Shown here one piece after another: positions 2,353 to 7,059 of a stretch of 64,000 bases of DNA. Within the stretch, counting starts at the first letter, position 1. Each line of letters starts with the position of its first letter. Source of the stretch: Tildeniella torsiva UHER 1998/13D (GTDB lineage Bacteria > Cyanobacteriota > Cyanobacteriia > Phormidesmidales > Phormidesmidaceae). The stretch is taken from positions 62,001 through 126,000 of the forward strand of contig JAHHIH010000017.1 in the NCBI GenBank assembly GCA_019358835.1, in the 5' to 3' direction. The position numbers and the translations under genes were made by a program. The notes under the pieces are model-generated. The model saw only the letters and a program-made list of their open reading frames with translations, ran no database searches and had not been told where the DNA came from.

Positions 2353-2381
2353 AATACGACTCAGACCACCGTTATGGATGG
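2353..2381 (-). promoter_or_regulatory. Predicted ECF (SigK-type) promoter of the sigma/anti-sigma operon
   Basis: Read on the minus strand, CCATCC (2381-2376) is followed after 17 nt by CGTATT (2358-2353). This resembles the CCATCC-N16/17-CCGAAT form known for mycobacterial SigK. The same two hexamers occur in the opposite direction at 2455-2482, upstream of the divergent gene. Transcription would begin near 2346, just before the sigma factor start. Confidence 0.6.
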
Positions 2382-2454
2382 CTGGGGGAGAAACAGATAC
2401 AGAACGCCATGGATGGGCCTAACTCAAAACTCAACCGTCAATTGGGATCGTTCG

Positions 2455-2482
2455 CCATCCACAGACCAAAGCTAGTCGTATT
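2455..2482 (+). promoter_or_regulatory. Predicted ECF (SigK-type) promoter of the ferritin-like gene
   Basis: CCATCC (2455-2460), a 16-nt spacer, then CGTATT (2477-2482). Both elements are identical to those of the minus-strand promoter at 2353-2381. Transcription would begin near 2489, giving a leader of about 50 nt before the ATG at 2540. It also excludes a GTG at 2483 as the start codon of the downstream gene. Confidence 0.6.
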
Positions 2483-2539
2483 GTGGCGGGTCTGATAGCA
2501 ATTACGCTTGCCCACGACATTAGCGCAAAGGATACTGCA

Positions 2540-3241
2540 ATGAATCACGATTTCATGTCTGACGATCTAGCTGCCCCCCGAGCAGGGGTTTCTCGCCGTC
2601 GGGTGATGGTGGGCGGCACGATCGCGGGTCTAGTTGGCACCCTCGGCTTCTCTGCCTTAACCAAGAGCGCAGCCCAGGCCCAGAACGGTAGCGCGGAGAA
2701 CCGCATCCTAGGGGGAATCCGCAGCAGAGCCGCCGCCAACGACGCGGCCATTCTCAACGGAGCGCTCTTCTACGAGCACCAGGCGATCTGGGCTTACGGG
2801 GCTGCCGCTGGGGGGCTCAGCGACACCGATGTGGGCAAAGCCGTGCTGGCGATCGCCCTGGCTAACCAGGCCGACCACATGGCCCACCGCGACCTGCTCA
2901 TCCAGGTCGTGGGCGACCTGGGCGGCACCCCCGTCATGGCCGAAGACAGCTACGACCTGTCGGCCTACCTGGAGCGGGGCGACGGCGGCCTCGACTCGGA
3001 TGTCAACATCGCCAAGCTGGCTCTGGCTCTCGAAACCGACGCTGCGATCGCCTACGCGGGTGAGGTCTCCCGGCTCAAAACCCCTGCGCTGATCTCCGCT
3101 GGGGCCTCCATTGCCGCCGCTGAGGCCGCTCACGCCACCACCATTCGCGCTGCCTTCATTTCTCTGGGGGTCGAGATTCCCTTTGTGCCTGCCCCCTTTG
3201 TCAGCGCCGACACCCGCGAGCAGTGGGTGCTCAAGGTGTGA
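2540..3241 (+). CDS. Exported ferritin-like domain protein
   Basis: Protein of 233 residues with a Tat-type signal (SRRRVMVGGTIAGLVGTLGF, with the AQAQ cleavage region about 20 residues later) and a ferritin-like four-helix domain of the Ferritin_2 type. Helix motifs with putative metal ligands are ALFYEHQAIWAY, NQADHMAHRDLL, LALETDAAIAYAGE and AAAEAAHATTIR. The family is poorly characterised; metal binding is inferred from the E/H pattern. The ATG at 2540 has AAAGGA upstream at good spacing and lies downstream of the predicted promoter. It is divergent from the ECF sigma gene, shares its promoter type and is probably in its regulon. A terminator hairpin follows. Confidence 0.87.
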   Translation: MNHDFMSDDLAAPRAGVSRRRVMVGGTIAGLVGTLGFSALTKSAAQAQNGSAENRILGGIRSRAAANDAAILNGALFYEHQAIWAYGAAAGGLSDTDVGKAVLAIALANQADHMAHRDLLIQVVGDLGGTPVMAEDSYDLSAYLERGDGGLDSDVNIAKLALALETDAAIAYAGEVSRLKTPALISAGASIAAAEAAHATTIRAAFISLGVEIPFVPAPFVSADTREQWVLKV

Positions 3242-3316: not shown

Positions 3317-3343
3317 GCCCGGGGCCTCGCCTCGGGCTTTTTT
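3317..3343 (+). terminator. Rho-independent terminator after the ferritin-like gene
   Basis: An 8-bp GC-rich stem (GCCCGGGG pairing with CCTCGGGC, one G-T pair), a 5-nt loop, then TTTTTT. It lies 75 bp after the stop codon and ends just before the convergent gene. Confidence 0.85.
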
Positions 3344-3345
3344 AT

Positions 3346-6300
3346 TTAGGAGAGAGAGATGGCTGCGACCTCAACCGATTGGGCGATCGCCTGCCAGTCT
3401 TCCGTTGCGCTTAGGTAGCCCACCTCGACCACATAGATGCGATCGCGCTGGGGAATCGGCAGGTACCAGTCTTGGGCAAAGTCGTCGCGGCAGCGCTGTT
3501 CTACCACCGCTGGGGGCAAGGGCATTTGGGTGGTCTGGCCAGTGACATCGTAGAGGCGCAGGGTCATGGTTTCGCCGCCGTCGGCTTTGGCCTGGGCGCG
3601 ATCGCCCTCGTCGATCTGCCATACCGCATAGAATCGATCCCCATCCTGGTCAATGGAGAGGCGAATCCAGCTGTCGGCAGCCACTTCTGCTTCCGGCTCA
3701 GGGCTAGAGGGCACCACTCCAAAGCTGTCGGGCGAGCTGGCCGGAATGCTGGATAGAGCCGCTACAACCTCTGGCGGTAGCCCCTCTATCCCGGACAGAT
3801 CCTCGACCCCAGCCACCTCTTCCGGCGGGGGAACATAGTCGCCGGGCTCTAGGGGCACTGGCGGCGGCACCGGCATGGGGGCCGGTCGCAGGGGAGGCAT
3901 TGTCATGGCAGAGTCAGCCAGATCGCTCTCCAGCGGCGGTTGGTCAGGGTCGGTATTCGGGATCGGGTCATCCCCCAGATGCACCTGACTGAGCAATTCT
4001 TCCTCTAGGGTGCTGGTCATCGGCTCCGACCCCACAAAACCGGCTTCTACAAAACCGGGGGGCATCGTCTCTGGGGTGGTCTCGTCTGGGAAAACAGGCC
4101 CCGGAGCAGTAGGCAGCGAGCCTTGGCCGCCCGCGTCTTCAGCGCGATCGGGCAAACTAGCGGCCTCTGCGGCTAGGTCTGGTGGTACATCGAAGCTGAG
4201 GGTGGAGGTGCCAACCATTTCCACATCGGCGGACGGTAGCCCCTGCACCATCTGTTGTAGCTCTAGGGGCACATCGGGGTCGTAGCCGCCGTAGTCAGCG
4301 GGGGGAGCATACTCGGGCACCACCGCGCCCGGCCCAGGGGCGATGCCTAGATTTGGAGACCCTGGAGCTGTAGATATCCCGTCTCCAGGGATTGGGGTAA
4401 CCTCCACCCCAGGTAGCCCCCAGGTGGGCTCGTCACTGCCCAGGGCAGCGGCCCGATCCAGACAGGCCTGTCCCTCGCTCTGGCGGCCCATCGCAATCAG
4501 CGCTTCCCCTTTGCCCAAAAGAGCTGCTGCCGATGTCGGGTCGAGCTCTAGGGCGGTGTCGAAGCAGAAGATCGATTCTTCGTAGCGGGCCATGGTGTTG
4601 AGCAACCGGCCCTTGCCAATCCAGGCGTCGATGACGCTAGCGTCGAGCCGCAGGGCGGCGTTAAAGCTATCCATTGCGTCGTTAGCCTGACCGAGAAGCG
4701 CCAGGGCATTGCCCCGTTCGGCCTGGGCCTGGGCGGCAATGGCGTTGATGCCTCCGGCTGATGTCCCAGTAGAGTCGGTCTTGCGGCGTTCCACTTCGGT
4801 CGCCTCCACCGCCTGGTTGAAATAGATCAGGGCGTTGTCGTAGCGGCCCTCGCGCATCAGTCGGCGACCCTCGGCCAGATCCATGCGAGCCTGCTCTAGC
4901 TTGCCGGGAGGCACTGCCACCGGGTACTCGTCGCTGGGCACTAGTTCGGCCTCGGGGGGCAAAAGGCCCACCTCGGGCAGGTCGGTTGCGGGGGGAACTG
5001 GCCCAGAGGTAATTGGGGCCTGGCTGCCTACTCCAGAAAAGTCAATATCTAGATCGGGGACAAGACCCACCGCCGGGCTGCGATCGGCGTCGGCATCGGC
5101 CTCTAGCTCTTCATCCTCATCGTCTTGGTCTTTGCCAAACAGCGACCCCGCAATGCCTGCCAGCAGCAGCAGAGCCGGAATTGCCGCCAGCATCCACCAG
5201 GCGCTGGGGGGCAGGTTTTGCAGGCGCTGCCAAAAATCACCCAGGGCGGTAGCGGGGCCGTTGGCATCTGAGCCGCCATCGGCGTTAGACACCAGCTCGC
5301 CCTGGGCGTTGCGAAGCTCGATGGCGCGATCGCTCCCGCCCACCACCAGCAGCCCCTCGGGGGTATAGCCCAGGGAGGCTGCGGGCTCATCGAGCTGTAC
5401 CGGTTCTGCTAGCTGCTTACTGCCATCGGGCGACCAGAGTTGAAGGGTGCCATCGGTACCGGCGGTGGCCAGAGTGCTGCCGTCAGGGCTGTAGGCTACG
5501 GCGCTGACGGCACCCTCATGGGCTTGAATGGTATTCCCCCTAGGCTGAAGAGTGGCGCGATCCCAGTTGCGCAGGCTGCCGTCGCCGCCTGTGGTCGTTA
5601 ACACTTGGCCATCGGGGCTACTGGTAATGGTGGTTACACCTTCCGGGTGGGCGTTAGCGCTCTGGCCAGCGGCGGTGCCATCCGCATTCCAAAGGCCCAG
5701 GCTACCGTTGCTGCTGCCGGTAATCAGCGTTTGGCCCCCCACGGGGTAATGGAGCGCTTGCACCGCCCCGCCGGGGGCAGCGATGGGTGCGCCCACAGCG
5801 GTGCCATCGGCCAGCGACCAGCGCTCTACGGTGCCGTCGGCGCTGCCGCTGGCCACAGTTTGCCCGTCGGGGCTGACGGCCAGGGCCAAAATCGGCCCGC
5901 CCTGCCCGGCGATCGGCTCGCCGATCGGGTTACCGCTGCGATCCCATCGGTGCAGGGTGCCATCGGCTCCGCTAGAGACCACGGTTTGCCCGTCGGGGCT
6001 AACGACTACAGCCGAGACGGCCCCTCGGTGGGCGTCGGCGACCACCGTTTCAGTCGGGTTGCCGTCAGCATCGAGCCATTGCAGCTGACCATCTTCGGTA
6101 CCGCGCACCATGAACTGGCCATCGGGGGCCAGGGCTACGCCACCGGGCAGTTTGTTGGCCCCCACCGTGACGTTAGCGCTGGCGGTTTGCTGGGCCTCGG
6201 CCACGGCGGCTTGGCCTTCCTCGCTGGTGGCAAAGCCCAAAAAGGCCTCGACGGGCACACTGGGCTCACCCCGATAGATGTAGTTGCGCGGCTGGGAATA

Positions 6301-7059
6301 GGGGTAGCGGGGGTCGTCGGGCAGGGTGCCATCCAGGCTCACCGGGCGCACGGCGTCTTGCCCCAGCACTTCGGAGGCGATCGCATAGCTAATGCCGTCG
6401 CTGCCCAGCTCGCGTACCACCGCTGCGGTGTCATCTTCCTCTACCTGCACGGCGGTATCGCCGGTCTCAAAGGGCTGGGTTTGAAAGATTTCGTAGTCGG
6501 CCAGGGCCAACCGGGTGGAGCTTTCAACGGGGCGATCGATAAACCGCAGCGGCACGTTGGGGCCACCCACCTGCGACCAGTTGGTGATCTCGCCGCGAAA
6601 AATGGCGGCAAACTGATCAAAGGTCAAATCGCCCCGAAACGGGTTGTCGCGCCCCACAATGATGGCAATTTTTTCCCGCGCCACCGGAATTGAAGTGAGG
6701 CTGGGATCTTCCTCGGTGTCACTGAGCGATCGCCCCAGGGCCGCTAGATCTACATTGCCGCCCCGCAGTGCCTGGAGCGCCTGCTCGTCACCATTGGTCG
6801 AAGACACCACATCGGTGTCGGGGTAGCGGGCTTCAAAGCCTTCGCCCAGGCTCTCGTTGATCCCCGCCATCGACGGTGACCCATCGATCGAAAGGCTGGT
6901 GCCGGGGGGGACGGTCTCTTGCAGGGTAAAGGTGGGCGTGGGTTCCGCCGTTACTTGAGCCAGCAGCCGAGGCTCAGACCGGAGCGCACTGATCGGCAAC
7001 GCAGCGAGGGCGCTGAACAGCGCCAGCATGGCCAGAGACGGCTTAGGAAACTGATTCAT
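3346..7059 (-). CDS. Substrate-binding/WD40/TPR/DUF4912 multidomain membrane protein
   Basis: A 1237-residue mosaic. Residues 1-35 form a signal peptide or anchor. About 45-295 is a PstS-like periplasmic binding domain (GSPSMAGINESLGEGFEARYP, NVDLAALGRS, FRGEITNWSQVGG, GISYAI). About 300-590 holds WD40-type repeats (VSPDGQTVVSSGADGTLHRW and similar). A membrane segment at about 617-640 (WWMLAAIPALLLLAGIAGSL) is followed by acidic sequence. About 710-870 has TPRs (YDNALIYFNQAVE, YEESIFCFDTALELDP). A long Pro/acidic linker follows, then a C-terminal DUF4912 domain (DRFYAVWQI, RLYDVT, DWYLPIP, YVVEVGYL). One membrane pass puts the binding and propeller domains outside and TPR-DUF4912 inside, so a phosphate or anion sensor is possible. 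That role is inference. Start ATG 7059. Confidence 0.85.
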   Translation of the reverse strand: MNQFPKPSLAMLALFSALAALPISALRSEPRLLAQVTAEPTPTFTLQETVPPGTSLSIDGSPSMAGINESLGEGFEARYPDTDVVSSTNGDEQALQALRGGNVDLAALGRSLSDTEEDPSLTSIPVAREKIAIIVGRDNPFRGDLTFDQFAAIFRGEITNWSQVGGPNVPLRFIDRPVESSTRLALADYEIFQTQPFETGDTAVQVEEDDTAAVVRELGSDGISYAIASEVLGQDAVRPVSLDGTLPDDPRYPYSQPRNYIYRGEPSVPVEAFLGFATSEEGQAAVAEAQQTASANVTVGANKLPGGVALAPDGQFMVRGTEDGQLQWLDADGNPTETVVADAHRGAVSAVVVSPDGQTVVSSGADGTLHRWDRSGNPIGEPIAGQGGPILALAVSPDGQTVASGSADGTVERWSLADGTAVGAPIAAPGGAVQALHYPVGGQTLITGSSNGSLGLWNADGTAAGQSANAHPEGVTTITSSPDGQVLTTTGGDGSLRNWDRATLQPRGNTIQAHEGAVSAVAYSPDGSTLATAGTDGTLQLWSPDGSKQLAEPVQLDEPAASLGYTPEGLLVVGGSDRAIELRNAQGELVSNADGGSDANGPATALGDFWQRLQNLPPSAWWMLAAIPALLLLAGIAGSLFGKDQDDEDEELEADADADRSPAVGLVPDLDIDFSGVGSQAPITSGPVPPATDLPEVGLLPPEAELVPSDEYPVAVPPGKLEQARMDLAEGRRLMREGRYDNALIYFNQAVEATEVERRKTDSTGTSAGGINAIAAQAQAERGNALALLGQANDAMDSFNAALRLDASVIDAWIGKGRLLNTMARYEESIFCFDTALELDPTSAAALLGKGEALIAMGRQSEGQACLDRAAALGSDEPTWGLPGVEVTPIPGDGISTAPGSPNLGIAPGPGAVVPEYAPPADYGGYDPDVPLELQQMVQGLPSADVEMVGTSTLSFDVPPDLAAEAASLPDRAEDAGGQGSLPTAPGPVFPDETTPETMPPGFVEAGFVGSEPMTSTLEEELLSQVHLGDDPIPNTDPDQPPLESDLADSAMTMPPLRPAPMPVPPPVPLEPGDYVPPPEEVAGVEDLSGIEGLPPEVVAALSSIPASSPDSFGVVPSSPEPEAEVAADSWIRLSIDQDGDRFYAVWQIDEGDRAQAKADGGETMTLRLYDVTGQTTQMPLPPAVVEQRCRDDFAQDWYLPIPQRDRIYVVEVGYLSATEDWQAIAQSVEVAAISLS

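Follow-up and report, generated by a model that had tools for sequence, protein, structure and literature searches.

Our results point to two divergent promoters within one intergenic region of the window (the whole stretch of DNA analysed here, 64,000 nt). They would be read by an ECF sigma factor paired with an RskA-type anti-sigma factor, the likeliest candidate being the product of the adjacent gene at 1750-2337, and the ferritin-like gene on the other side of the region would be a conserved target of this branch of ECF factors. We put the probability of this reading, judged from comparative sequence evidence, at about 0.85.

Probable divergent promoters in the window

The intergenic region (2338-2539) splits an ECF sigma factor gene on the minus strand (1750-2337, 195 aa, with a conserved start codon) from a plus-strand Ferritin_2 gene whose product carries a Tat signal (2540-3241, 233 aa). 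Behind the sigma gene, also on the minus strand, lie an RskA-type anti-sigma gene (907-1695, 262 aa) and then a gene for a carotenoid oxygenase of the RPE65 family (PF03055; 1-822), which is cut by the window edge and is a downstream neighbour, not part of the core. The nearest named relatives of the contig among public genomes are Nodosilinea and Leptolyngbya. Downstream of the ferritin-like gene, a consensus scan found a terminator-like hairpin with a T run (3317-3337, plus strand), which would end the ferritin-like transcript. Further along, a minus-strand ORF of 1237 aa (3346-7059) appears by eye to have a phosphate-binding-like N-terminal part together with WD40-like and TPR-like repeats.

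The promoter of the sigma operon, P1, occupies 2353-2381 on the minus strand and consists of CCATCC (2381-2376), a 17-nt spacer and CGTATT (2358-2353). The promoter of the ferritin-like gene, P2, occupies 2455-2482 on the plus strand, with CCATCC (2455-2460) and CGTATT (2477-2482) separated by 16 nt. These are the hexamer pairs of the preliminary description, whose positions and spacings proved exact. The pattern CCATCC-N16/17-CGTATT has exactly two matches in the window, namely P1 and P2, compared to 0.02 expected from shuffles, and no shuffled window contained two. The 9-mer inverted repeat AATACGACT/AGTCGTATT noted earlier also exists, with arms at 2353-2361 and 2474-2482, and is the only inverted repeat of at least 9 nt inside the intergenic region. 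The repeat amounts to no more than the extended -10 elements of both promoters, lying in opposite orientations.

Across the whole genome, four CCATCC/CGTATT pairs were found at spacings of 14 to 19 nt. The genome-wide search that had been suggested thus recovered P1 and P2, while its other two matches, both with an 18-nt spacer, are unconvincing as promoters. We rejected the match at C12:45239, which lies inside a long ORF, and the match at C32:47115, which lies on the strand opposite crtB and probably within a neighbouring gene.

The ferritin-like gene has a 5' leader (2483-2539, plus strand) that contains, between P2 and the start codon, a block, TTAGCGCAAAGGATACTGCA, conserved in the intergenic alignment. 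The strongly conserved stretch in this leader, TTAGCGCAAAGGATACTGC, exceeds a simple ribosome-binding site.

Conservation among relatives and across the class

Relatives were gathered from whole genomes and public contigs. In Nodosilinea and its family, we compared 18 distinct intergenic regions from which the sigma gene and the ferritin-like gene diverge; all of them keep both promoters, at sigma protein identities of 57-100%. The minus-strand site always lay in front of the sigma gene and its plus-strand counterpart in front of the ferritin-like gene, and their distances to the start codons fell within a narrow range. In contrast, the intergenic region was anywhere between 131 and 435 nt long, and the stretch between the promoters was unalignable and unconserved. 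Since the -35 element reads AATCC in Halomicronema-like relatives and, on the ferritin side, AATCT in the most distant relative (L020), the core of the motif reduces to [CA]ATCC and CGTAT. The 17-bp spacer of P1 is found in most Nodosilinea copies. It looks derived from a class norm of 16, because sigma-side sites outside the Nodosilinea group have 16.

Throughout the family-level group, the P1 -10 element ends about 15 nt (14-18 nt) before the sigma start codon (2338-2358 in the window). With a usual transcription start point, the leader would measure only ~8-10 nt and could not accommodate an ordinary ribosome-binding site, which suggests that the sigma mRNA is nearly leaderless. More distant type-A copies have a longer gap between the -10 element and the start codon. 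The two genes also occur together. Among 34 genomes of the family, counting sigma orthologues at 57% identity or more, 16 had both the sigma and the ferritin-like gene, none had the sigma gene only, one had the ferritin-like gene only and 17 had neither (Fisher test, 1.5e-8, a statistic that ignores phylogeny). The conservation, orientation and spacing of the twin promoters and the co-occurrence of the sigma and ferritin-like genes are direct observations.

We then searched 290 genomes of the class for the ferritin-like gene, which was present in 86 at an E-value of 1e-25 or better. Pooling the class-wide and relatives searches gave 89 orthologues whose upstream region could be read. The class motif was defined as [ACG]ATCC-N16/17-CGTA within 250 nt upstream, allowing A, C or G before ATCC. 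It was present in 71 of the 89 orthologues, including ones without an adjacent sigma gene. The spacer was 16 nt in 69 of these 71 cases and 17 nt in two, and never 15 or 18 nt; the base before ATCC was mostly A or C. By comparison, mononucleotide shuffles gave a mean of 0.35 and at most 3, and the reversed pattern gave none. Elsewhere in these loci, 250-nt stretches carried the motif at a rate of 0.6% each, which predicts 0.5 instead of 71. The 89 orthologues include several close relatives, and the count by genus (39/43) is therefore the fairer figure; by family, the count was 14/16. The motif was missing upstream of the remaining 18 ferritin-like genes, many of which belong to two genera (g21, 0/5; g63, 1/7), with some single genomes besides. 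In one genome (L192 and L259; G040 C15:66670-67288), the match to the ferritin-like gene was split into two parts that lie in different reading frames, indicating a pseudogene or a sequencing error.

The same motif was found at other RskA-ECF genes. Among those without a ferritin neighbour, 45 of 88 carried it within 300 nt upstream, always with a 16-nt spacer. Together with the class-wide conservation on the ferritin side, this makes it very probable that the motif is the autoregulatory promoter of this ECF branch, which would also have a widely conserved target in the ferritin-like gene. The pairs in the window fit this cyanobacterial RskA-ECF promoter class, which we define as [ACG]ATCC-N16-CGTA, P1 having N17. 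The proposal of the preliminary description that the sigma operon and the ferritin-like gene each stand behind a promoter of a SigK-related ECF factor is thus favoured by the comparative evidence, as the motif precedes RskA-paired ECF genes.

A divergent arrangement of an RskA-type ECF gene and the ferritin-like gene was seen in 25 further entries, which include a few second fetches of one locus. Where the sigma type was close to that of the window (HMM 245-275), in further families, both P1 and P2 were usually present. Where it was more distant (HMM 160-182), P2 was found but P1 was not. This distant RskA-like ECF type stands divergent from the ferritin-like gene in L185, L186, L228, L232-L234, L236, L237 and L239-L242.

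We searched for further members of the regulon with three patterns: CATCC-N16/17-TCGTATT (11 genomes), CATCC-N16/17-CGTAT (4 genomes) and AATCCR-N15/16-CGTAT (4 genomes). These strict searches, covering up to 11 genomes, yielded no site common to all genomes besides the twin promoters, and the additional matches were near the level of the reversed-pattern control. Weaker additional targets may exist.

The sigma factor and its probable ferritin-like target

The sigma protein matches Pfam Sigma70_r2 at residues 35-98 and r4 at 139-187 and has no region 3 match. Hence, it is an ECF factor (group 4 of the sigma-70 family), with regions 2 and 4 only. Its partner is encoded by the adjacent, co-directional gene, which matches RskA_C at 49.1 bits (cut-off 29.4) and an NCBIfam anti-sigma factor model above its cut-off, making this an RskA-type sigma/anti-sigma pair. 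The anti-sigma gene lies downstream of the sigma gene in nearly all relatives.

SigK promoters have a CCATCC-like -35 element with a spacing of 16-17 nt, and the system had been called SigK-type in the preliminary description. Kinship with SigK holds, as the best solved-structure match of the sigma protein is M. tuberculosis SigK (PDB 4nqw, E 1.4e-23). Membership does not. The protein scores 138 bits against the SigK model NCBIfam PRK09646, below the cut-off of 226, whereas it scores 232 bits against NCBIfam PRK12519, above the cut-off of 222. Furthermore, the SigK cysteine pair C133/C183, which we located in the alignment by its 50-residue distance, is replaced by Ala and Leu at the aligned positions. 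By these two tests, the protein is best described as an RskA-paired ECF factor related to SigK but not SigK itself. A literature search for a published SigK promoter consensus gave nothing usable. The cysteine pair is conserved in 94% of ECF18 and 56% of ECF19 members (PMC7509140).

Comparison with known systems shows both likenesses and differences. Like the window, the SigK-RskA system of Mycobacterium tuberculosis (ECF18/ECF19 area) has an anti-sigma factor with an RskA_C domain encoded directly behind the sigma factor. In contrast, the conserved target in the window is a Tat-signal ferritin-like protein, while the SigK targets used in PMC7509140 are mpt70/MPT83. SigG, SigH and SigI of PCC 6803, PCC 7002 and Nostoc are cyanobacterial ECF factors, as is the window sigma. 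SigG is co-transcribed with its partner gene sapG, the product of which binds SigG, and a 2009 review described promoter recognition by the Synechocystis factors SigG, SigH and SigI as unclear (PMC2758279). The word "ferritin" occurs nowhere in PMC2758279 or PMC11119718. Autoregulation is common among ECF factors and serves to define group-specific motifs (PMC8103513). The architecture in the window, a probably autoregulated ECF factor with a neighbouring putative target, is of this known general kind. It differs from it in that the ferritin target keeps the motif class-wide even when unlinked from the sigma gene.

The ferritin-like protein passes the gathering cut-off of Ferritin_2 (PF13668) with 75.6 versus 24.7 bits. 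Among its 89 orthologues, 87 carry an RR signal, and E79, H113, H116, E165, E195 and H198 are nearly invariant. The resulting putative ligand pattern is E79, HxxH (113/116), E165 and ExxH (195/198), compared to E, ExxH, E and ExxH in the di-iron pattern. Thus, His replaces Glu in helix 2, which gives HxxH rather than ExxH. These features fit an exported helical protein with a putative di-metal site to which helix 2 would contribute the HxxH. The structure model is all-helical but of low confidence (pLDDT 50). Its fold matches were Rv2844, Dps and bacterioferritin, none with an E-value below 0.001, and are no more than consistent with the Pfam assignment. A sequence search for a solved homologous structure found none.

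Proposed regulation and its meaning

We propose that both promoters are read by RNA polymerase carrying an RskA-paired ECF factor, with the product of 1750-2337 as the likeliest candidate. At P1 the sigma factor would amplify its own sigma/anti-sigma operon, and at P2 it would switch on the adjacent Tat-signal ferritin-like gene. By analogy with the RskA family, the sigma factor would stay bound to the RskA-like protein as long as there is no signal, and an envelope or oxidative signal would release it. The ferritin-like gene would be a target of the ECF branch across cyanobacteria, with or without a neighbouring sigma gene, and the carotenoid oxygenase a lineage-specific downstream neighbour, transcribed by read-through at most. 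Recognition by the adjacent sigma factor, the RskA-like release, the nature of the signal and the activity of the ferritin-like protein are what we infer.

Which RskA-ECF factor acts on the ferritin promoter is likewise a matter of inference. The genome has a second RskA-ECF gene (C47:71193), located behind a CHRD-domain gene; this second system (L129:40-2502; G000 C47:70039-72501) comprises a CHRD-domain protein, an ECF sigma factor and an RskA-type anti-sigma factor. Upstream of this locus is CATCCA-N16-CGTACT, nearly identical to the window motif, so that related promoters exist and cross-recognition is possible. P2, and perhaps P1, might then be read mainly by another RskA-type ECF factor such as that of C47, or by several overlapping ones. 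In most ferritin-like loci, moreover, the motif occurs without an adjacent sigma gene, and hence another factor must read P2 there; P2 is also present without P1 beside the distant sigma type. However, in the family of the window the ferritin-like gene tracks the adjacent-type sigma gene (16/17) and is absent without it even though other RskA-ECF factors remain, and P1 and P2 have the longer AGTCGTATT in common, which differs from the GCGTACT of C47. We therefore consider a main role of another factor in the window unlikely. Far less probable still is a reading in which a dimeric repressor or activator uses the inverted repeat as its operator, the -35-like hexamers being only incidental. The repeat is perfect over 9 bp, but its arms are 112 nt apart and their separation varies freely among relatives, whereas the -35-like element is fixed at 16-17 nt from each arm, even at unlinked ferritin-like genes where only one arm exists. 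We rejected the operator reading on these grounds.

The preliminary description had also placed the oxygenase in the sigma regulon, which would join carotenoid cleavage to metal or oxidant handling. The oxygenase gene has the same orientation as the anti-sigma gene and follows it after 84 nt, this order is kept in the inner clade of closest relatives, and a search for a terminator-like site in the gap found none. Read-through from the sigma promoter may occur. Yet, although most Nodosilinea have an oxygenase orthologue, it adjoins the anti-sigma gene only in this inner clade and is unlinked in most, and unlinked copies also occur in genomes without these sigma and ferritin-like genes. The class promoter motif was found upstream of none of the copies, linked or unlinked. 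Instead, linked and many unlinked copies have in common a conserved, CACAATAGA-like block a short distance ahead of the start codon. In the window, a CACAATAGAG-like conserved block upstream of the oxygenase (823-906) probably marks a promoter region of its own. Because linkage is confined to the inner clade, the motif is lacking and the gene has its own conserved block, the data do not support a regulon joining carotenoid cleavage and metal handling as a conserved unit, and control of the oxygenase as an operon member is doubtful.

Twin promoters that are probably read by an RskA-paired ECF factor point to a conserved and apparently undescribed stress regulon, which would tie this ECF branch to the ferritin-like gene; we did not find the class-wide tie in the literature searched, which covered the ECF papers in part. 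The analysis also corrects the proposed link to carotenoid cleavage, which is attractive but has weak support. With an exact promoter motif assigned to an ECF branch that can be delimited, and to a single conserved target gene, the regulon can be tested directly by reporter fusion in many species. We consider it more likely than not that cyanobacteria share a class-wide RskA-type ECF regulon with the promoter [CA]ATCC[AG]-N16-CGTAT, and that the output conserved best is an exported protein of the ferritin-like kind, probably with a di-metal site, serving in oxidant or metal defence of the envelope and periplasm. If so, the target would keep its promoter through gene shuffling and through changes in the subtype of the neighbouring sigma factor. 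This suggests a common periplasmic response to oxidants or metals in oxygen-producing bacteria.
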